64,000 nt of DNA, from NCBI GenBank assembly GCA_039938515.1, contig JBDUUL010000015.1, positions 1 to 64,000 of the forward strand. Direction: 5' to 3'. Made by a program: the position numbers and the translations under genes. This DNA is from Nitrososphaera sp. (GTDB lineage: Archaea; Thermoproteota; Nitrososphaeria; Nitrososphaerales; Nitrososphaeraceae). The notes beneath the pieces are model-generated. The model made no database searches and was not told the DNA's origin. It was given only the letters and a program-made list of their open reading frames with translations. Shown piece by piece: positions 1 through 30,102 of this stretch (its first letter is position 1; each line of letters opens with the position of its first letter).

Positions 1-199
1 CCGGGCTTCCGTCAATTCCCTGGAGAAATGCAAGCGGGGCATAGACTATTGCAAAGAGAACCTCAAATGCCACGGTTACTATGATAAAATCGACAAGCCA
101 TGCCCAGAACCTTGTGGACCACCTGGCCAGCACTATTTCCCTTGTTGGCTGTGGTTCCTTTGCTCCTGCAGGATTATTACCTGTTGGTTCAAGTGCCAT
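1..199 (-). CDS. RDD-like membrane protein, N-terminal part (cut by window edge)
   Basis: The minus strand reads from an ATG at 199 without a stop to the window edge (66 codons). After about 25 polar, Pro/Gly-rich residues comes RFWAWLVDFIIVTVAF, which resembles the first helix of RDD-family membrane proteins (Arg before the helix, Asp inside it), followed by more hydrophobic sequence. A TATA-like TCTAATATG is centred near 222, about 23 bases before the ATG, so the transcript looks leaderless. The TGCA palindrome at 243-256 lies just upstream and is shared with the divergent ATPase gene. The family call rests on one motif and the C-terminus is unseen. Confidence 0.6.
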   Translation of the reverse strand, partial: MALEPTGNNPAGAKEPQPTREIVLARWSTRFWAWLVDFIIVTVAFEVLFAIVYAPLAFLQGIDGSP

Positions 200-242: not shown

Positions 243-256
243 TGCAATGCACTGCA
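243..256. promoter_or_regulatory. TGCA palindrome, site 1
   Basis: TGCAATGCACTGCA. It ends 6 bases before the TATA-like GTATTAAG (264-271) of the P-ATPase gene and also stands upstream of the TATA box (about 222) of the divergent RDD-like gene, so one site may serve both. Confidence 0.75.
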
Positions 257-296
257 CGCGGAAGTATTAAGCACCATTGTCTCCTTGTTTTAAGTA

Positions 297-2264
297 TTGG
301 TCAGAGAAGGGTCTGCGTCAACCCGCTTGGATAGGGCTAAGTCTAATCTGAAGTCTTACCTGAACCAGACATCAGAGGTGGAGGCACCGCCGGCCCAAGC
401 AAGCATTACCAAAAAGGTCAGTGCATTTGTGCGCAGGTACCCTATGCCGGTCTTCAGTTTCATTGGTCTTGTCGTCGGCACGGTACTCCAATGGGGACTT
501 GGGCTCTCGGAGCAGGCCCAGTGGATTTGGCTTGCCACCCTTGTTATTGGCGGCGTCCCCGTCGTCTGGGAAACCGCGAAAGGGATTGCCAGTAAGCACT
601 TTGCATCCGACATCGTCGCCACGCTTGCCATAATCGCCGCCCTCCTGCTAAATGACGGCTTTCCAGGGGTAGTCATTGTACTTATGCAGACTGGTGGGAA
701 GGCACTTGAAGACTATGCATTTGGCAGAGCGTCGTCATCGCTTGATGTGCTTCTTGCACGATCGCCAAGGCTGGCCCACAGAAAAGGCAATGGTGCAATT
801 AAAGACATAGCAGTCGAGGATGTTAGGATAGGCGACATCCTGTTAATCAGGCAGGGCGACTTGATCCCAGTCGACGGCCGGATAATCAGCGGGGCAACAC
901 TGATAGACGAATCTTCGCTTACAGGAGAGCCGCTTCCTAAAGCAAAAACAGCAGGCGACGGAGTGTTTAGCGGCACTGTCAATACCCAGAGCGTAATAGA
1001 AATAGAGGCTGAAAAGCCCAGCAGCGAAAGCCAGTACGCAAAGATCGTAGAGCTTGTTCGGAAGGCTCAGCAAGATAAGGCGCCTCTTCAGAGGCTTGCA
1101 AGTAAATACGCCGTTTGGTTCACGCCAATCACCGTAGCAGTCGCGCTTGTCGGGTATCTTGTTACCGGCCGCGTTGAAACAATCCTGTCAGTACTTGTCG
1201 TTGCTACGCCCTGCGCGCTGATATTTGCGACACCGGTTGCAATAATCAGCGGCATAAATCGCGCCGCAAAGCACGGAATTATCATAAAACACGGAGCAGC
1301 GATAGAGCAGGTTGGCAAGGCCGAATTGGTAGTCTTTGACAAGACCGGCACCATTACTTCCGGCTCTCTTTCAGTTACCGCTGTACTTCCGCTAGGCAAA
1401 CGAACATCAGACGATCTTCTTTTCAAGGCCTCAAGCGTTGAGCAGCTTTCTTCGCATCCTGCAGCTCGCGTCCTTGCGGCCAAGGGATTTGAGAAATTCA
1501 GGACACTGCAGATTCCCTCGGATTTCACTGAAATTCCAGGCGCAGGTGTGCAGGGCAGAGTAAACGGCGAATTCGTGAAGGTAGGTTCAAGGCAGCTATT
1601 CGAAGAGAATTTTAATGCGGCTGAGGTCAATCAGCAGCTCAGGACTATTGGCAGGCTGGAATCTGTCCCTGCTGACGGCAGCATGCTGGCCTATGTCAGC
1701 ATAAACGACAATTTAGAAGGAGCGATTGTCTTTGGCGATACAATAAGACCGGGGGTACGCAAAATGATAAACGATCTGCACCTCATGGGTGTTAGAGAGA
1801 CGGTGTTGCTTACTGGCGACAATGAGAGAAACGCAGTAACCATAGCGCGCAATGCGGGAATTGAAAGAGCAGAGTGGGACCTGCTTCCGCAGGACAAGGT
1901 CTCATCCGTAAAAAAGCTGAAGGAGGTCTATCGCGACATTGTGATGGTCGGCGACGGCATCAATGATGCGCCGGCTCTCGCAACAGCGACTGTTGGCATC
2001 GCCATGGGTGCCAAGGGGACCGCGATCTCGGCAGAATCTGCAGACATTGTCCTGCTTGTCGACGACGTGACTAAGGTCGCTGACGTGATGAGGATAAGCC
2101 AGAGGACGATTTCAATTGCAAAGCAGAGCATATTCATTGGTCTTGGAGTCAGTATATTTTTGATGGCGGTTGCAAGCACCGGGGCAATCCCGCCCGCGCT
2201 GGGCGCGATGCTTCAGGAAATTCTGGATGTGGCTGTTATCCTTAACGCAGTCCGCGCCAGGTGA
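297..2264 (+). CDS. P1B-type heavy-metal-translocating P-type ATPase (TPC variant)
   Basis: A 655-residue membrane ATPase likely to export a metal ion. Visible landmarks are the actuator-loop TGE (209-211), phosphorylation site DKTGT with Asp348, SSHP with the P1B-typical His-Pro (about 387), and hinge GDGINDAP (about 552-559). The membrane metal motif that is CPC in Cu/Zn/Cd pumps is TPC here (304-306, in VVATPCAL), and there is no N-terminal CxxC metal-binding domain. The substrate therefore cannot be read from the standard signatures. The TTG at 297 is chosen because a TATA box at 264-271 sits 30 bases upstream, the spacing used by most genes here. It is controlled by palindrome site 1. 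Confidence 0.92.
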   Translation: MVREGSASTRLDRAKSNLKSYLNQTSEVEAPPAQASITKKVSAFVRRYPMPVFSFIGLVVGTVLQWGLGLSEQAQWIWLATLVIGGVPVVWETAKGIASKHFASDIVATLAIIAALLLNDGFPGVVIVLMQTGGKALEDYAFGRASSSLDVLLARSPRLAHRKGNGAIKDIAVEDVRIGDILLIRQGDLIPVDGRIISGATLIDESSLTGEPLPKAKTAGDGVFSGTVNTQSVIEIEAEKPSSESQYAKIVELVRKAQQDKAPLQRLASKYAVWFTPITVAVALVGYLVTGRVETILSVLVVATPCALIFATPVAIISGINRAAKHGIIIKHGAAIEQVGKAELVVFDKTGTITSGSLSVTAVLPLGKRTSDDLLFKASSVEQLSSHPAARVLAAKGFEKFRTLQIPSDFTEIPGAGVQGRVNGEFVKVGSRQLFEENFNAAEVNQQLRTIGRLESVPADGSMLAYVSINDNLEGAIVFGDTIRPGVRKMINDLHLMGVRETVLLTGDNERNAVTIARNAGIERAEWDLLPQDKVSSVKKLKEVYRDIVMVGDGINDAPALATATVGIAMGAKGTAISAESADIVLLVDDVTKVADVMRISQRTISIAKQSIFIGLGVSIFLMAVASTGAIPPALGAMLQEILDVAVILNAVRAR

Positions 2265-5288: not shown

Positions 5289-5717
5289 TCAACCCGGTCC
5301 ATGCTGAAAGTCTGGCGGAGAAAACGTTTCCGGTCCGACCATCTGGCGAGCCTTGTCAAGTACTTCCCATTCCTGTTCCTCGCCCCTTAGGCTAGAGAGG
5401 ATGTACCTGCCGAGCTCGGTGAGGCGGACCTTGCTATTAAGGAACTTGAAATAAAGATCGCCTGCGACAAGCATATTCTCGGCAGACGAGTGCGAGCTTG
5501 ACTCCTCGGCTGCGGGCAGCGTTGACTTGTCAATTTCTATCACACCATTTGCAAGCGCATGGTTGATGTCGGATCTTGAAATTTCGTATTCTAGCAATTC
5601 GAGGATCGAGAGGCTGGCGATGTCAAGGATGCTAACCATTCTAATTATCCGGGGGTCTTTTAGCAGGACACTGACGGTAGCCATATCGATCTGAGTCATT
5701 CGACCAGGAGTCTCCAC
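5289..5717 (-). CDS. Winged-helix transcription-factor-like protein
   Basis: A 142-residue protein with a predicted helix-turn-helix: VSVLLKDPRIIRMVSILD, then LSILELLEYEISRSDINHALANGVI, then a wing-like VRLTELGRYILSSL. This is the pattern of archaeal ArsR/HTH proteins in which LTELG ends the recognition wing. GTG 5717 is selected because a TATA-like GTTTTAGATAG lies about 25 bases upstream on the minus strand. It is divergent from the CBS gene at 5867. Its target is unknown. Confidence 0.75.
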   Translation of the reverse strand: METPGRMTQIDMATVSVLLKDPRIIRMVSILDIASLSILELLEYEISRSDINHALANGVIEIDKSTLPAAEESSSHSSAENMLVAGDLYFKFLNSKVRLTELGRYILSSLRGEEQEWEVLDKARQMVGPETFSPPDFQHGPG

Positions 5718-8147: not shown

Positions 8148-8723
8148 CTAGAGCACAACCTCGGCAACGACAGTGTTCGGCGTGGACATGACATTTGCCC
8201 GGACGTTTGCCAGTTCTTCAAAAATCATCTTTATCAACTGCGCCGTAAATTCAGACCAGTTCTGCCCGAGCTCGTGCTGTATGATAAAGACATGTTTGCC
8301 GCCAGCCTCAATCTTGTGATCAGAGTTTATGCCGGAGACTTTCATGTACTCTTGCAATACTGCTAACACTGTCCAGAGATTATAGCTTTTTTTCATCAAA
8401 AGAACGGAATCTTTCATCAAGTCAAGCGCAGCCTTTGCTGCTTCTTTCGTAAAGAGCTCCCTATATCCTGCAATGTCCTTGTCCTTTAGGCCGTTTTCCT
8501 TTGCGACGGAAATTGTCCTGTCAATCAGAGTAGAGAGCATTACCTTCGGCACCGGCATCATGCCAATCTTGTTTTCATACCTGTCCCACTCTGAATAGCG
8601 TCGGAGGATTTGGTTTGTCAAGACATTGAGCGAGATTTCTCGCTGATCCGCCTCCTTTTGCAGCTCGCCTAGAACAGAATCATCTAGCCTAAAGGTCAGG
8701 CTCTTTGTCTCTCGTGTGGACAT
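8148..8723 (-). CDS. Ribbon-helix-helix protein with C-terminal domain (copy A)
   Basis: A 191-residue protein. Residues 6-45 form a canonical RHH unit: the strand KSLTFRLDDSVLGELQKEA, then REISLNVLTNQILRRYSEW. This fold binds DNA as a dimer, usually on palindromes. A conserved linker DRYENKIGMMPVPK leads to an approximately 130-residue helical/beta domain that may sense a ligand or mediate oligomers. It is a close paralogue of the gene at 26089, with the same linker, the same EYMKVSGIN and a C-terminal TPNT-AEVVL. It lies downstream of a SnoaL gene, as its paralogue lies beside one. Confidence 0.85.
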   Translation of the reverse strand: MSTRETKSLTFRLDDSVLGELQKEADQREISLNVLTNQILRRYSEWDRYENKIGMMPVPKVMLSTLIDRTISVAKENGLKDKDIAGYRELFTKEAAKAALDLMKDSVLLMKKSYNLWTVLAVLQEYMKVSGINSDHKIEAGGKHVFIIQHELGQNWSEFTAQLIKMIFEELANVRANVMSTPNTVVAEVVL

Positions 8724-13107: not shown

Positions 13108-13193
13108 TCGCAAAAACCGGGCAGGGATACCGGCTCTAACTCGACTTGCGCTAACCGGCAGTAGAGCGTAGCGGCAAGCCTTGCGGGGAAGTG

Positions 13194-13209
13194 AATGCAC
13201 TGCATTGCA
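13194..13209. promoter_or_regulatory. TGCA palindrome, site 7
   Basis: AATGCACTGCATTGCA, ending about 14 bases before the TATA box GATATATCC (about 13224-13232). The cupredoxin ATG is at 13257. Confidence 0.78.
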
Positions 13210-13256: not shown

Positions 13257-13748
13257 ATGTCGACAAGCAGGACACTTAAAAATTATGGGCTCGTGATTGC
13301 AGCTGCAATCTCTGTTGTTTTGGTTCTATCTATCGCAGTAGCTGCGATTTCAAACAAGCCCGCTGACGCAACCAGGTACAAAGGCGTAAACCGGGAATTC
13401 TGGATCGCAAACATGGACAACACCAAGATTAACGAAACAAAGGTGCTGCTGCCAGCAGACATGTTCACTACAAGTACACTCGTTGTCAAGAAGGGCGACA
13501 ACGTTACAATACACTTCTTCAACGTCGAGGATAAGCCAACAGACAGGCATTCATTTTCAATAGACGGCAAACCCTATGCGATGAATGTCGTTCTTAACGG
13601 CGGTCAGAACGCAACCATCAACTTTATTGCAAATCAGACAGGAGTGTGGACGTACTATTGCATATACCACGAACCCATGATGAAAGGCCAGTTGGTGGTA
13701 GAGGCGCCAACGCTGGATGAGCTTCTGGCTCTGGCGCACCAGAGGTAG
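13257..13748 (+). CDS. Membrane-anchored cupredoxin (blue copper protein)
   Basis: A 163-residue protein with an uncleaved or cleavable N-terminal helix (about residues 11-31), then a cupredoxin domain facing outward. Type 1 copper ligands are all present: His98 in DRHSF, Cys135, His138 and Met141/142 in CIYHEPMM. It is likely an electron carrier for the copper-based respiratory chain of ammonia oxidisers. A second in-frame ATG is absent and the ATG at 13247 is in a frame that stops at once, so 13257 is firm. It lies directly under palindrome site 7. Confidence 0.92.
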   Translation: MSTSRTLKNYGLVIAAAISVVLVLSIAVAAISNKPADATRYKGVNREFWIANMDNTKINETKVLLPADMFTTSTLVVKKGDNVTIHFFNVEDKPTDRHSFSIDGKPYAMNVVLNGGQNATINFIANQTGVWTYYCIYHEPMMKGQLVVEAPTLDELLALAHQR

Positions 13749-14941: not shown

Positions 14942-14957
14942 TGCAATGCAGTGCATT
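14942..14957. promoter_or_regulatory. TGCA palindrome, site 8
   Basis: TGCAATGCAGTGCATT, then ten bases, then TATA box TTATATAG (14967-14974), then the CBS ATG at 14995. This is a clean example of the common layout. The rest of 14692-14994 contains no supported gene. Confidence 0.8.
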
Positions 14958-14994
14958 CTACGTGGTTATATAGCAAGCCTCCACTTTGTCCGGC

Positions 14995-15465
14995 ATGGAA
15001 AATTCAGTAGAAGCTATAATGTCAAGAAATCTGGAAACTATAGACGCAGCAGCTTCTTCACTTGAAGCGGCAAGAAAGATGCGTGATAAGAAAATCAGCT
15101 CGCTCCTTGTGGTCAACAAGAAGAACAAGGATGAAATGCCGCTCGGAATCGTTACAGAACGCGATCTCGTTTGCAGGATATGCGCTCAGGGATCAAGCGG
15201 AAAGGATGTCTACATAAGAGACATAATGTCCTCTCCAATAGCAACCATCGATCCACAAACCACTGTCGAGGGCGCAGCAGACATTATGCTAAGCAACAAG
15301 GTAAGGCACCTCTTGGTGGTTGACCGGAACGCAAAGGCAACCCCGGTTGGAATCGTTGCGCCGACTGACCTCAACAAGTACCTGCAAGCAAACATTGACA
15401 TGGACGAAGTCCAGGCTAGAATCCTAAAGGCTGTCCAGTACAGCGAGGAGATAGGCTGGGCGTAG
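14995..15465 (+). CDS. CBS-pair protein (156 residues)
   Basis: A stand-alone CBS pair. First repeat: VEAIMSRNLETIDAAASSLEAARKM ending in LGIVTERDLVCRI; second repeat: IRDIMSSPIATIDPQTTVEGAADIM ending in VGIVAPTDLNKYL. The first GIVTERD pattern is the usual nucleotide-ribose contact. It probably reports adenylate state or similar to partner proteins. ATG 14995 is used because the TATA box is 25 bases upstream, so the upstream in-frame TTG at 14986 would fall outside the transcript. Regulated through site 8. Confidence 0.92.
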   Translation: MENSVEAIMSRNLETIDAAASSLEAARKMRDKKISSLLVVNKKNKDEMPLGIVTERDLVCRICAQGSSGKDVYIRDIMSSPIATIDPQTTVEGAADIMLSNKVRHLLVVDRNAKATPVGIVAPTDLNKYLQANIDMDEVQARILKAVQYSEEIGWA

Positions 15466-19353: not shown

Positions 19354-19376
19354 TTGCATTGTAATGCACTGCATTC
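19354..19376. promoter_or_regulatory. TGCA palindrome, site 11 with extra half-site
   Basis: TTGCATT (19354-19360) followed by the full AATGCACTGCATTC (19363-19376). TATA-like GCTTAACTA is at 19382-19390 and the ATG at 19416. Confidence 0.78.
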
Positions 19377-19415
19377 CTCATGCTTAACTATCGTCGCGCC
19401 TCTTCGACCATTGAA

Positions 19416-19649
19416 ATGTCTGAACCTATACCAAATTGGGAAGCAATAGTTCACAAGAACGTGAGGTCAAGAGACGGCGTCGACATGGGCAATGTTGCAG
19501 AAGTGGACGAAAAGAACTTGGTAATAATTCAAGGCGTTGCCTCTGAAAAAGAGTACAACGTTCCCCACTCTGCAGTCGAGGAATTCAATGGCGCCGAAGT
19601 AAGACTGAACGTCCCCTACTCGCAGGTAAAACAATTCCTCGTAAAATAA
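19416..19649 (+). CDS. PRC-barrel-like small protein (copy A)
   Basis: A 77-residue beta-rich protein: WEAIVHKNVRSRDGVDMGNV, VDEKNLVIIQG, EYNVPHSAVEEFNGAEVRL. The pattern (KxVRSxDGxDxGNV, a strand, a Val-Pro turn, then a GxEVxL strand) is like a PRC-barrel, a fold found in RNA-processing and photosynthetic proteins. A clear paralogue lies at 52390 with the same opening (MHKNVRSSDGVDAGN). ATG 19416 lies 31 bases after its TATA box. Function unknown. Confidence 0.75.
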   Translation: MSEPIPNWEAIVHKNVRSRDGVDMGNVAEVDEKNLVIIQGVASEKEYNVPHSAVEEFNGAEVRLNVPYSQVKQFLVK

Positions 19650-24777: not shown

Positions 24778-25296
24778 TCACTGGTTCTTGTCGGGAAAGA
24801 GAATCTCGCTTTGCATGAATTCCCCGAGTTTCTCGTACATCGGCCGGTATTCGACAACGAGCCGCTCGCTCAAAAAGCTAGAGACAAGGGTCTGGCTCTT
24901 GACTATTGCCCTGAAAATGTCCTTGTCGGTGATAATGCCGACGAGCCGGTCTCTTTGCATGACAGGTAGCCTCCTGATGTCCTTAAGCTGCATGGTCTGC
25001 ATGGCATCCTTGAGAGAGCTCTGGGGCTCGATAGTTATCACTGGTTTGCTCATTATTTCTCGGGCTGTCACAGAGTCTTTATTGTGATTGGAAGTTCCGG
25101 CTGCCATGTACTTGACCAGGTCCCGCTCTGTGACTATTCCAGCGGGCCTGTTTTCCTCGTCGCTTCCCACAATCACCACGCTTCCTATGCCATTATCCAC
25201 CATGGTTTTTGCAATGACCTTGATGCTCTGGTTCTCTTTGGCAGTCTTGACATCCCGTATCATGACGCTTGCCACGGGTACGATTTCTATGCTCAT
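24778..25296 (-). CDS. CBS-pair protein (172 residues)
   Basis: Two CBS repeats: VASVMIRDVKTAKENQSIKVIAKTM through PAGIVTERDLVKYMAA, and AREIMSKPVITIEPQSSLKDAMQTM through VGIITDKDIFRAI. An approximately 35-residue tail follows, with EYRPMYEKLGEFM. Similar CBS proteins sense adenylates. The minus-strand TATA-like CATATACTA (about 25332-25340) gives a leader of about 10 bases. It is divergent from another CBS gene, and palindrome site 13 lies between the two TATA boxes. Confidence 0.92.
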   Translation of the reverse strand: MSIEIVPVASVMIRDVKTAKENQSIKVIAKTMVDNGIGSVVIVGSDEENRPAGIVTERDLVKYMAAGTSNHNKDSVTAREIMSKPVITIEPQSSLKDAMQTMQLKDIRRLPVMQRDRLVGIITDKDIFRAIVKSQTLVSSFLSERLVVEYRPMYEKLGEFMQSEILFPDKNQ

Positions 25297-25354
25297 TTGC
25301 GCGTTTTACCGCTTGGCAGTTCGGTGGCATAGTATATGATTACTATGAATTCGG

Positions 25355-25371
25355 TGCATTGCACTGCATTC
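25355..25371. promoter_or_regulatory. TGCA palindrome, site 13 (shared, divergent CBS genes)
   Basis: TGCATTGCACTGCATTC. The plus-strand TATA box CAATATATCC (25377-25386) and the minus-strand TATA-like box (about 25332-25340) flank it at about 6 and 15 bases. Confidence 0.8.
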
Positions 25372-25413
25372 ATGGACAATATATCCATCTTGGCGGTTAG
25401 CACTTACATCAAG

Positions 25414-25980
25414 GTGACAAATATGCTGACAGTTGAGAACGATATGCTGGATGAAAACGCAGGCAAGGTTGCAGACAGGAATCTGGTAATGCTCGACGTA
25501 TCTTCAAGCGTCGCAGATGCAGCGAGACTAATGAAAAAGCGCAACACGACAAGCATGTTTGTCAGTGTTGCCGACTCTGACACTCCCGTGGGCATCGTTA
25601 CGGAGCGGGACATCCTATACAAGGTCGTCGCCGAGGGCAGGGGGCCGTACAAGGTGACCCTCGGCGAGATAATGAGCTCACCACTCGTGAGTGTGCCTGA
25701 AGGCGCGACTGTGCGAGAAGCAGTCGCCCTGATGAGAGCAAGATCGATAAGGAGAATAGCAGTCGTTTCCGATGGCAAAGTTGTCGGCCTGCTTACCCTG
25801 ATGGCGATTGTGGGCGGCAGCACTGATTCAGGCAGGGTCGAGCTGGCCGAGGTTGAGCTGCCAAAAACCGCATGCCCCTATTGCGGCTCAAAATTTGACG
25901 ACAGGGATGAAATGTCAAAGCACATCGACAGGTTGCACCTTGGAAGCGGCCTTCTTGAAGGCGACCCAAGACGATGGTAG
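25414..25980 (+). CDS. CBS-pair protein with C-terminal C2H2 zinc finger
   Basis: A 188-residue fusion. CBS repeat 1 (VADRNLVMLDVSSSVADAARLM through VGIVTERDILYKVVA) and repeat 2 (LGEIMSSPLVSVPEGATVREAVALM through VVGLLTLMAIV) are followed by a linker and a classical C2H2 finger: CPYCGSKFDDRDEM then SKHIDRLH (Cys-x2-Cys-x12-His-x4-His). This suggests a ligand-sensing pair coupled to a DNA, RNA or protein contact. GTG 25414 fits the TATA spacing (about 33 bases); ATG 25423 is the alternative. Shares site 13 with the divergent CBS gene. Confidence 0.9.
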   Translation: MTNMLTVENDMLDENAGKVADRNLVMLDVSSSVADAARLMKKRNTTSMFVSVADSDTPVGIVTERDILYKVVAEGRGPYKVTLGEIMSSPLVSVPEGATVREAVALMRARSIRRIAVVSDGKVVGLLTLMAIVGGSTDSGRVELAEVELPKTACPYCGSKFDDRDEMSKHIDRLHLGSGLLEGDPRRW

Positions 25981-26088: not shown

Positions 26089-26709
26089 ATGATGGTAGCC
26101 GACGAAGGCGAAAAAGGCATGGAAAATGCCTCGCTGCAGCAAACAAAGAAGACGCGCAGCGTGACGTTTAGGATTGATTCTTCCGTCATAGATGAGCTGC
26201 AGGCCGAGTCGGACAACCGCGAAGTATCGCTTAACGTCCTTGTCAACCAGATCCTAAAGCGCTACTCTGAATGGGACAGGTATGAAAACAAGATTGGCAT
26301 GATGCCTGTGCCAAAGATAATGCTCTCAACTCTCATTGACCGGGCGATAGGCGTGGCAAAGACAAGCGGCATAAAGGATGTCGAGCGCTATCGCAGCGAG
26401 ATAGTCAAAGAGGCCGCCCAAATAGCATTCGGCCTCATTAAAGACTCGGTGCTGTTTATGAAAAAGCAGTACAACCTATGGGTCGTTCTATCGGTTCTTG
26501 AGGAGTACATGAAAGTGTCCGGCATCAACGCCGACCATCGACTTGAAGGGTCAAGGAAGCATGTCTTTGTCCTACAGCACGAGCTTGGCGAGAACTGGTC
26601 ACTGTTCACAAAGGAGCTGTTATCGCTCATTTTCGAAAAGCTGGCCAACGTCAAGGCCGAGATCAGCGTAACGCCGAATACGACTATCGCAGAAGTGGTT
26701 CTGCGATAA
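26089..26709 (+). CDS. Ribbon-helix-helix protein with C-terminal domain (copy B)
   Basis: A 206-residue paralogue of the gene at 8148. After a 22-residue extension the RHH unit reads RSVTFRIDSSVIDELQAES then NREVSLNVLVNQILKRYSEW. The shared linker is DRYENKIGMMPVPK, followed by LSTLIDRAIGVAK, NLWVVLSVLEEYMKVSGIN and HVFVLQHELGENW. ATG 26089 lies 23 bases after TATA-like CCTTTTATTC. No palindrome precedes it although a SnoaL gene with one follows. It is one of three RHH-type proteins that are candidates for the TGCA-binding factor. Confidence 0.87.
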   Translation: MMVADEGEKGMENASLQQTKKTRSVTFRIDSSVIDELQAESDNREVSLNVLVNQILKRYSEWDRYENKIGMMPVPKIMLSTLIDRAIGVAKTSGIKDVERYRSEIVKEAAQIAFGLIKDSVLFMKKQYNLWVVLSVLEEYMKVSGINADHRLEGSRKHVFVLQHELGENWSLFTKELLSLIFEKLANVKAEISVTPNTTIAEVVLR

Positions 26710-26719
26710 GGCCGCAACC

Positions 26720-26736
26720 TGCATTGCACTGCATTC
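26720..26736. promoter_or_regulatory. TGCA palindrome, site 14
   Basis: TGCATTGCACTGCATTC, identical over 17 bases to site 13. TATA-like GCTTATTTACC (26742-26752) follows after 5 bases. Confidence 0.8.
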
Positions 26737-26769
26737 ACTGAGCTTATTTACCTCTTGACGATAGAGCAA

Positions 26770-27210
26770 ATGACCGGAAGAAAAATGGCGACGAATGTGG
26801 GAGCAAATCGGCAAACCCCGGTTACATCAAATGAACAGGCCGTGTTCCACTATTTCAACTGCATTGGAAGCAAAGACCTTGACGGTCTGCTAAACCTGTT
26901 TGCCGAGGATGCAGAGCTTATTGAGCCTTTCAGCAAGGAGAAGGGCCTCAGGGGGCACTCTGCCATCGAGCCCTTTCTCAAGGTCGCCTTTATGGCAAAC
27001 TCGGAGCTAAAGCGGCAGATTACCATAGAAAGAAATTCTCTTCAAGGCAGGCGCAAGAACACTGTGATGGCGCGCGTTTATTTTGAAAAAGGCGAGTCAC
27101 TTGAAGGGTCCTTTACCTTTGAATTTGCTGATGAGGTTTCCGCTGCGAGCAGCGGTACCTCAACGCGAGTGTATCCAAAGATCAAAAAGCTGACAATCAA
27201 GTTTGACTGA
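26770..27210 (+). CDS. SnoaL-like/NTF2-fold protein (copy B)
   Basis: A 146-residue relative of the products at 8980 and 27215. It shows VFHYFNCIGSKDLDGLLNLFAEDAELIEPFSKEKGLRG in outline, then SAIEPFLKVAFMA and a beta-sheet half ending KIKKLTIKFD. The ATG at 26770 (or 26785) fits the TATA box at 26742. It follows an RHH gene, repeating the RHH plus SnoaL pairing seen at 8148-9378. Convergent with copy C, their stops four bases apart. Ligand or reaction unknown. Confidence 0.8.
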   Translation: MTGRKMATNVGANRQTPVTSNEQAVFHYFNCIGSKDLDGLLNLFAEDAELIEPFSKEKGLRGHSAIEPFLKVAFMANSELKRQITIERNSLQGRRKNTVMARVYFEKGESLEGSFTFEFADEVSAASSGTSTRVYPKIKKLTIKFD

Positions 27211-28119: not shown

Positions 28120-28584
28120 TCAGTGAACTATCATTACAGGGCACGCGGAGATTTCAGAGACCCTTCTCGCTACGCTGCCAAGCGGCGTCAGCTTTTCCTT
28201 TCCTATCTGTTTGCTTCCCATCACTATGAGGCCGGCGTGCTCGCCTTTTGCTATCGACACAATCTCATCTGCTGGCGACCCCACCCCCAGAACAAACCGG
28301 ACAGGCACGCCCTGCTGCCGGACATTTCGGATCTTTTGATCAAGCATCGCCTGCGCGCCTGTCTTTAGTATTCTAATCAATTGGACCTTGGCGTCTTCCA
28401 GGCTCGTTGTATCGCTGATAAACCCCAGCGTCGCGCTTGGCGGAACGAATCTGCTGTCGACTATGTGAACAATCAGTATTTCCGACTTCATGGCGCGGGC
28501 AAGTTCGGTAGCTTTTTCCAGCGCCCGATCTGACATTTCTGTGCCGTCGTGGGGAACAAGTATGGTGGACATTGTACCTGACAT
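28120..28584 (-). CDS. Universal stress protein UspA family (second copy)
   Basis: A 154-residue USP domain: MSTILVPHDGTEMSDRALEKA opens it, and AGLIVMGSKQIGKEKLTPLGSVARRV with PVMIVH closes it. The glycine loop differs from the first copy (MGSKQIG rather than MGSRGLG), so ATP binding is less sure. ATG 28584 is 27 bases after its TATA box GCTAAATAAC. It is divergent from the zinc-ribbon gene and shares site 16. Confidence 0.92.
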   Translation of the reverse strand: MSGTMSTILVPHDGTEMSDRALEKATELARAMKSEILIVHIVDSRFVPPSATLGFISDTTSLEDAKVQLIRILKTGAQAMLDQKIRNVRQQGVPVRFVLGVGSPADEIVSIAKGEHAGLIVMGSKQIGKEKLTPLGSVARRVSEISACPVMIVH

Positions 28585-28629
28585 TGTATTGGCAATAGTT
28601 GAATCCGTTATTTAGCTCGTCGATTATAG

Positions 28630-28645
28630 TGCAATGCAGTGCATT
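28630..28645. promoter_or_regulatory. TGCA palindrome, site 16 (shared)
   Basis: TGCAATGCAGTGCATT. Minus-strand TATA (about 28606-28615, Usp) and plus-strand TATA-like GCTTAACTA (28652-28660, zinc ribbon) flank it. Confidence 0.8.
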
Positions 28646-28687
28646 CTTGCAGCTTAACTAGCTTTGAGTCGCACTTTCTGTGTAACC

Positions 28688-28987
28688 ATGGGAAAAAAGA
28701 GTGCATTTCACGAGTCTCCCGAGAGCTCTGTGAGACCGTATGAGGACCTGAGCACCATGCAGCGGGACATCAGCGGCGAGGCTATTGCCGGCCCTGCACT
28801 CGGGATCTGTGATGCCTGTTTCTGGAGCTACACCGCAATCAACCACAAGGGAGTGATGGAGAAGTGTGCATTGTGCGGCGGACGTGTTTCAGTAATTCCG
28901 CTGTCAGCAGAAGAGACGACCCGGTTCGAGTATTCGTCAAAGAGAGGCTTGACGCTGCGCTTTGGGCGCAAGCTGCCGCTCAGATAA
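28688..28987 (+). CDS. Small zinc-ribbon protein, CxxCxW family (copy B)
   Basis: A 99-residue protein. ICDACFWSYTAI and MEKCALCGGRVS give CxxC...CxxC with a Trp two residues after the second Cys, as in the gene at 18969. The tail VIPLSAEETTRFEYSSKRG then LTLRFG aligns with that paralogue. The first 35 residues are polar and variable. ATG 28688 is about 31 bases after the TATA-like box. Function unknown. Confidence 0.78.
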   Translation: MGKKSAFHESPESSVRPYEDLSTMQRDISGEAIAGPALGICDACFWSYTAINHKGVMEKCALCGGRVSVIPLSAEETTRFEYSSKRGLTLRFGRKLPLR

Positions 28988-29526: not shown

Positions 29527-29548
29527 AATGCATTGCACTGCACTGCAA
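29527..29548. promoter_or_regulatory. TGCA palindrome, site 18 (last one)
   Basis: The sequence is AATGCATTGC directly followed by ACTGCACTGCAA. TATA box TTGATATACG (about 29557-29566) and the second Hsp20 ATG at 29587 follow. No comparable site is seen between here and 64,000. Confidence 0.78.
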
Positions 29549-29586: not shown

Positions 29587-30102
29587 ATGGCATCACGCAA
29601 AAACAGAATCACGGTTCACAAAGGCACGCATAAATCTGCAAAGCGGCTCGACGATGTTTTTGAAGACTTTAGGCAGGAAATCGAGAGGATGGTTTCCGGC
29701 TCTCTTCCAGCCCTGGCTTTTCCGGCGCCCGGGTTTGCCGGGTCTGCGCTCATTGAAAGAGACCTGCCCAGGCTTCCGCTCTGCGACATGGTCGATAGGG
29801 GCAGCAAGTACGAACTGTATGTAGAAGTCCCGGGGATAGACAGAGAGAAAATAAAAGTGCATGGAACGAGGGGTGGAGTAGAGATATCAGGCGAGCAATC
29901 AGAAGCAAGCTCGGAGAAGGCAAGGAACTATGTCTACAACGAGAGGTCGTTCAAGTCGTTTTACAGAAACATTGCGACGCCTGAAGAAATAATTCCTTCC
30001 AAAATAGCCGCCAGAATGGCAAACGGAATCCTTACGGTTGAAATGCCAAAAAGCCCGTCAGCCGCTGTAAAAGAAAGGGGCGTCAGGGTAGAGATAAAAT
30101 GA
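29587..30102 (+). CDS. Small heat shock protein Hsp20 (second copy)
   Basis: A 171-residue alpha-crystallin chaperone, paralogue of the gene at 2998. The N-terminus is basic (ASRKNRITVHKGTHKSAKR). The core includes YELYVEVPGIDREKIKVHG, RSFKSFYRNIATPEEIIPSK and ANGILTVEMPK. ATG 29587 is chosen over the in-frame TTG at 29557 because the TATA box is about 25 bases upstream of the ATG. Its stop overlaps the start of the Cys-rich gene that follows (ATGA). Confidence 0.95.
   Translation: MASRKNRITVHKGTHKSAKRLDDVFEDFRQEIERMVSGSLPALAFPAPGFAGSALIERDLPRLPLCDMVDRGSKYELYVEVPGIDREKIKVHGTRGGVEISGEQSEASSEKARNYVYNERSFKSFYRNIATPEEIIPSKIAARMANGILTVEMPKSPSAAVKERGVRVEIK

Follow-up and report, generated by a model that had tools for sequence, protein, structure and literature searches.

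Can a single palindrome that lies between two genes transcribed away from each other serve as the operator of both? The question is raised by a short intergenic region of Nitrososphaera sp., from which two CBS genes diverge and which contains one 19-bp element built of TGCA boxes; the window analysed here is the whole stretch of 64,000 nucleotides around it. In the earlier note, a palindrome of this kind had been placed between the TATA boxes of divergent genes at 25355, 28630 and 243, and such an arrangement is indeed found at each of the three positions, with the following features.

24778..25296, minus strand: two-CBS-domain protein, left partner of site 25364 (PF00571, E 6e-32)
25331..25339, minus strand: TATA-like box TCATATACT of the left CBS promoter, ~29 bp from site 25364, distal register
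25355..25373, centre 25364: TGCA-box palindrome TGCATTGCACTGCATTCAT, 19 bp, between the two CBS genes, kept in 8 genomes
25378..25386, plus strand: TATA-like box AATATATCC of the right CBS promoter, centre ~+18 from site 25364, proximal register, aligned and conserved in 8 genomes
25423..25980, plus strand: CBS protein with a C-terminal CxxC/HxxxH finger, right partner of site 25364 (PF00571, E 1e-25)
28120..28572, minus strand: universal stress protein (Usp), left partner of site 28639 (PF00582, E 2e-26)
28607..28616, minus strand: TATA-like box GCTAAATAAC, ~28 bp from site 28639, distal register
28630..28648, centre 28639: TGCA-box palindrome TGCAATGCAGTGCATTCTT between the Usp and zinc-ribbon genes, site retained in 9 genomes
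28652..28660, plus strand: TATA-like box GCTTAACTA, centre ~+18 from site 28639, proximal register
28688..28987, plus strand: 99-aa zinc-ribbon-like protein, right partner of site 28639, with CxxC pairs read from the sequence
1..199, minus strand: RDD-like membrane protein, a 66-aa N-terminal fragment cut by the contig end
218..225, minus strand: TATA-like box CTAATATG, ~30 bp from site 252, distal register
243..261, centre 252: TGCA-box palindrome TGCAATGCACTGCACGCGG
264..272, plus strand: TATA-like box GTATTAAGC, ~+17 from site 252, proximal register
297..2264, plus strand: heavy-metal P-type ATPase, right partner of site 252, start 297 or 327

The partner genes had also been named beforehand, and domain searches agree with CBS/CBS at 25355 and with Usp/zinc-ribbon at 28630, where the Usp match is accompanied by a small CxxC protein that matched no Pfam family. 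At 243 the P-ATPase is well supported (TIGR01525, 529 bits) and the RDD-like neighbour is matched only weakly (PF06271, E 0.035, below the cut-off). In relatives, GTAAAATATT is aligned with the TATA-like box of the left CBS gene, and the Usp gene has an alternative start at 28584, 55 bp from its site. The small CxxC family of the zinc-ribbon-like protein has many members in Nitrososphaera genomes, including 7 matches in this genome and 11 in the relative G135.

The element is strongly enriched. Allowing up to two mismatches, TGCAnTGCAnTGCA has 39 matches in the window, whereas shuffles that preserve dinucleotides give 4.9 +/- 2.3 and at most 12, and its exact form occurs at 22 sites per strand in this genome versus 0 for the reversed pattern. 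As CpG is part of the reversed pattern, that control is imperfect, which gives the shuffle comparison its weight. A first motif model with a low threshold gathered mostly background and was dropped, and the consensus given here, TTTGCAATGCA-S-TGCATTGCAAA with ~20 bits, is based on 40 strong sites from the parts of the genome that were examined. In these sites TGCA is exact in 32, 90, 82 and 42% at positions -9, -4, +1 and +6, respectively, and in 5% or less elsewhere, so that the element consists of four box positions with a 5-bp pitch over 19 bp. Although approximately 69% of the sequence is coding, 39 of the 40 strong sites are located outside genes, both gene starts and coding share being taken from a simple gene caller. 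Full palindromic symmetry was considered and rejected, since the two edges are unlike and determine how far away the TATA box lies.

All exact TGCAnTGCAnTGCA sites of the window fall within 243 to 29547, and a second cluster of exact sites is present at 33-52 kb of another contig (C8). Further sites of the island stand upstream of other genes, for example:

13191..13209: regulon site upstream of the cupredoxin gene at 13257
14942..14960: regulon site upstream of the CBS gene at 14995
19360..19378: regulon site upstream of the DUF2171 gene at 19416
26720..26738: unshared regulon site upstream of the SnoaL-like gene at 26785
29529..29547: regulon site upstream of the Hsp20 gene at 29587, built of four TGCA boxes

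Genes of the island and of C8 encode Usp, CBS, Hsp20, OsmC-like, PII and SnoaL-like proteins, Mg- and heavy-metal P-ATPases, cupredoxins, PHA-synthesis proteins, a PfkB-like kinase, and site-2-protease-like and ferritin-like proteins, where the names on C8 and some of those in the window were read from sequence only. The sites are probably operators of a stress or energy-limitation regulon of ammonia-oxidizing archaea, the signal being what we infer. The remainder of the window (30000-64000) has no exact site, and the site-rich island ends at ~29.6 kb; between 9448 and 18719 the island also contains genes for acyl-CoA carboxylase, SDR, CoA-transferase and a class III-like PHA synthase.

The distance from each site to the neighbouring promoter was examined after sorting the halves by their edge, a C at +7 defining a TTCC edge and a G at +7 a TGCA edge, and plain A+T content was used as a proxy for the TATA box because a TATA model obtained by EM training on promoters that lack a site performed poorly. 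TTCC-edged halves show an A+T peak at +18 from the centre, which reaches 0.81 in the genome under study (n=28) and 0.89 in relatives (n=35), and TGCA-edged halves show a peak at +28 in relatives (0.74, n=40). Not one of 2000 permutations reached any of these three peaks. Within the genome under study, the +28 peak is not significant, either for all TGCA-edged halves (p 0.06, with the maximum elsewhere) or for the ten halves with an annotated gene, for which the maximum does lie at 28 but with p=0.13. Start codons are 43-47 bp away at approximately half of the +18-type promoters and mostly 48-57 bp away for the +28 type, distances that suggest leaderless or short-leader transcripts.

Each of the three palindromes has one TATA-like box per register, at +18 on the right and ~-29 on the left of 25364, at +18 and -28 around 28639, and at +17 and -30 around 252. 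The earlier suggestion that the symmetry of the site suits action in both directions is right only in part: each direction has its own edge and spacing (18 and ~28 bp), and elsewhere a palindrome between divergent genes seems to serve just one of the two. Single sites lie between at least four further divergent gene pairs of the window (2952, 5819, 7289 and 9421), and at 2952, 5819 and 9421 a TATA box is present on one side and absent on the other; sharing is thus not automatic.

Comparison with relatives indicates where the arrangement has been maintained. Within the genus, 8 genomes have the CBS/CBS pair with its single site and 7 have the Usp/zinc-ribbon pair with its own. For both pairs the site and the two TATA boxes are aligned, so that one site with TATA boxes on both sides is conserved as a unit in 7-8 genomes; the CBS/CBS sites of two relatives (G135 and G216) are weaker copies. 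The same two genomes provide one case each of partner decay and partner swap at the Usp/zinc-ribbon locus. In G135, Usp has decayed to a remnant of ~40 aa (VLVPYDGT) and its TATA box has changed from TATTTAC to TATCTAC, and despite this decay the site and the zinc-ribbon TATA box are retained. In G216, a cupredoxin-like gene takes the place of the zinc-ribbon gene, with its start 45 bp from the site centre and an A/T box at ~+18. Single cases as they are, both point the same way, towards the element as the common control. For the P-ATPase next to site 252, relatives offer no ortholog above 38% identity, and as the contig end truncates the gene on the left, this pair is known from the present genome alone. 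The proposal that the element rather than its neighbours is the common control is accordingly supported for the CBS/CBS and Usp/zinc-ribbon pairs, which combine two TATA boxes and fixed spacing in 7-8 genomes with, at the Usp/zinc-ribbon locus, retention of the element through decay or swap, and is plausible for 252 in its own genome only.

These observations are best accommodated if each palindrome is an activator-type operator that serves both flanking genes as part of a stress regulon, a prediction that we consider likely, with a fair margin for error; protein binding, activation and a joint response of the partners are what we infer. A regulator bound at one palindrome just upstream of both promoters would help to recruit TBP/TFB in both directions, with the TTCC/CCTAC-edged half facing a TATA box at 18 bp and the TGCA-edged half facing one at ~28 bp. 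The two spacings differ by ~10 bp, or one helical turn, and since the second TATA box lies one turn further out, the bound protein would present a similar face to both. In other archaea, a binding site that closely precedes the BRE, with little freedom in its distance, is the mark of an activator (PMC2995911, PMC4706686, PMC5512572). The TGCA-box sites likewise lie upstream of the BRE/TATA region at constrained distances, as seen in the +18 and ~+28 peaks, and it is this placement that leads us to interpret the element as the operator of an activator.

The same palindromes might instead be repressor operators that block access of TBP/TFB or of the polymerase in both directions, as palindromic operators near the TATA box are often repressor sites in archaea and an array of bound dimers could extend to the BRE. 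We regard this as unlikely, because at most promoters the TATA centre follows the site centre at 18 or ~28 bp, and no site between TATA and start was seen among the promoters examined. For TrmBL1 and Lrp-type regulators, an upstream position goes with activation and a downstream one with repression (PMC4706686, PMC2995911), and strict spacing favours protein-protein contact. Still less probable is that each site serves one gene and that the second is adjacent by chance with an unrelated promoter. This does describe 2952, 5819 and 9421; at the CBS/CBS and Usp/zinc-ribbon loci, however, the relatives that retain the genes show both TATA boxes in alignment, at the two usual spacings, and at the latter locus the site outlives the loss or swap of a partner. 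Finally, the self-complementary TGCA boxes could fold into hairpins, and the sites are clustered in an island, as might be expected of a repeat that is not an operator (a terminator hairpin, transposon end, or replication or segregation site). Such an origin is very improbable given the fixed distance to TATA, the confinement to 5' ends of genes, the coherent gene functions, and the retention of the element by orthologous promoters across genera and families.

Among known systems, the Lrp-type archaeal activators (Ptr2, LysM, Ss-LrpB) are similar in placement: their dimer site immediately precedes the BRE, its distance being tightly constrained, and activation occurs by TBP recruitment (PMC2995911). 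The TGCA-box site shares this position but differs in its sequence, its two registers and two directions, and in having no Lrp protein linked to it. TrmBL1 of the Thermococcales is a global regulator that also uses a palindromic operator, the TGM, whose upstream sites activate (PMC4706686). The TGM consensus, TATCAC-N5-GTGATA, is however not matched by the consensus found here (TTTGCAATGCASTGCATTGCAAA), and TGM sites lie mostly downstream of TATA, in contrast to the upstream position and TGCA-box core described here.

With respect to gene content, the mycobacterial DosR dormancy regulon offers a parallel, as it comprises several Usp, CBS (hrp1), Hsp20 (hspX), a cation P-ATPase (ctpF) and tgs1 (PMC4090907, Table 3). 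Here, too, a single type of operator heads genes for Usp, CBS, Hsp20 and P-ATPase as well as storage genes, and the likeness extends to a PfkB-type kinase, ferritin-like proteins and storage polymer synthesis (tgs1 there, PHA here) (PMC4090907), several of the family names on the archaeal side having been assigned by inspection of the sequence alone. The present system belongs to an archaeon and has a different motif, and the likeness is thus one of content, not of regulator. It may be, with the arguments about evenly balanced, that ammonia-oxidizing archaea possess an undescribed DosR-like stress or dormancy regulon with one regulator, a TGCA-box operator and two helical registers (18 and ~28 bp), in which one asymmetric site would drive two back-to-back promoters. 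An operator with strict promoter geometry in both Nitrososphaera and Nitrosopumilaceae provides a list of probably co-regulated stress genes and a handful of candidate regulators, and the two-register geometry is a testable rule for bidirectional activation in archaea.

A literature search for a regulon of ammonia-oxidizing archaea with a TGCA-box motif found none, and to our knowledge gene regulation in these organisms is nearly uncharted. Exact TGCAnTGCAnTGCA occurs in 87 of 300 genomes class-wide, with almost no occurrences of the reversed control. Nitrososphaera and a few genera related to it have it in abundance, Nitrosocosmicus lacks it entirely or almost so, and each genome of Nitrosopumilaceae contains 0-5 copies; two Nitrososphaera genomes (G255 and G256) are nearly devoid of it. 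In Nitrosopumilaceae, the sites head clusters that include a small winged-helix gene, an RHH homolog, CBS genes, Hsp20 and Usp, and the element consists of four TGCA boxes followed by CCTAC and then a TATA box at ~+22/23. Some of these sites lie between divergent genes and have TATA boxes on both sides. On two Nitrosopumilaceae contigs (L093, 5245-5263, and L112, 2947-2965), a four-box site separates a winged-helix gene from a small CxxC gene; its edges are CTTAC-like, and a TATA box lies to either side of it.

Two proteins encoded in the window are candidates for the regulator, and the similar, tentative weights that we attach to them are shares within the activator reading and do not compete with it.

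5289..5717, minus strand: winged-helix-like protein, candidate regulator, whose distribution tracks the motif within Nitrososphaeraceae
26089..26709, plus strand: RHH protein, candidate regulator, with a ribbon-helix-helix N terminus and a domain weakly like the H-NOX/Bet3 fold

The winged-helix-like protein, to which the searches assigned no family, might possibly bind the element as two dimers on opposite faces, together with its A2-type counterpart in Nitrosopumilaceae. The model for such binding is the IdeR/DtxR iron box, a 19-bp palindrome of four 5-nt repeats bound by two dimers on opposite faces (PMC8464063). The TGCA-box element has the same layout, with four boxes, a 5-bp pitch and a central S, and this match to the two-dimer arrangement would favour a winged-helix dimer. 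The repeats themselves differ, being CCTAA there and TGCA here, no link to iron genes is evident, and four CCTAA repeats (TTAGGTTAGSCTAACCTAA-like) combined with iron genes were not found at TGCA-box sites. Among Nitrososphaeraceae, the family of 5289-5717 is found only in motif-bearing genera, is absent from Nitrosocosmicus and in several genomes is preceded by a site of its own, and the A2 gene directly follows a site at many Nitrosopumilaceae loci. On the other hand, the 5289 and A2 types may not be homologous, and three genomes with sites (G143, G259 and G248) have no detected 5289 homolog. True DtxR-family proteins occur whether or not there are sites; with a DtxR-type domain in 34 of 34 genomes, DtxR was rejected as a discriminating candidate. 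A2 was likewise set aside as a general regulator, as Nitrososphaeraceae have just distant paralogs of it.

The CopG-like RHH protein, whose gene comes next after the right CBS gene and thus behind site 25364, is an equally tentative candidate for the TGCA-box binder. Homologs lie within site-headed Nitrosopumilaceae clusters, the strand TRSxTxR is largely conserved, and the two nearly motif-free Nitrososphaera genomes have no close ortholog. Against it, RHH dimers do not usually bind boxes at a 5-bp pitch, and Nitrosocosmicus retains a 60% identical protein, including the DNA-contact strand, with no sites nearby; because of this occurrence without sites, RHH may not be the sole regulator. The structure model of the protein is of moderate confidence (pLDDT 72), and a fold search with it returned weak H-NOX/Bet3-like matches and otherwise mostly designed proteins. 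Its family, which also includes 8148-8723, has no Pfam match above the cut-off, no NCBIfam match and, in a search with the RHH profile, no sequence relative in the PDB. There are 7 family matches in this genome and up to 19 in G135, and the C-terminal domain has invariant D149, H150, E153, H158 and H164. An archaeal RHH gene of this kind is also present on two contigs (L189 and L195) filed as Chitinophagaceae and Phycisphaerae MAGs, which are probably mis-binned.
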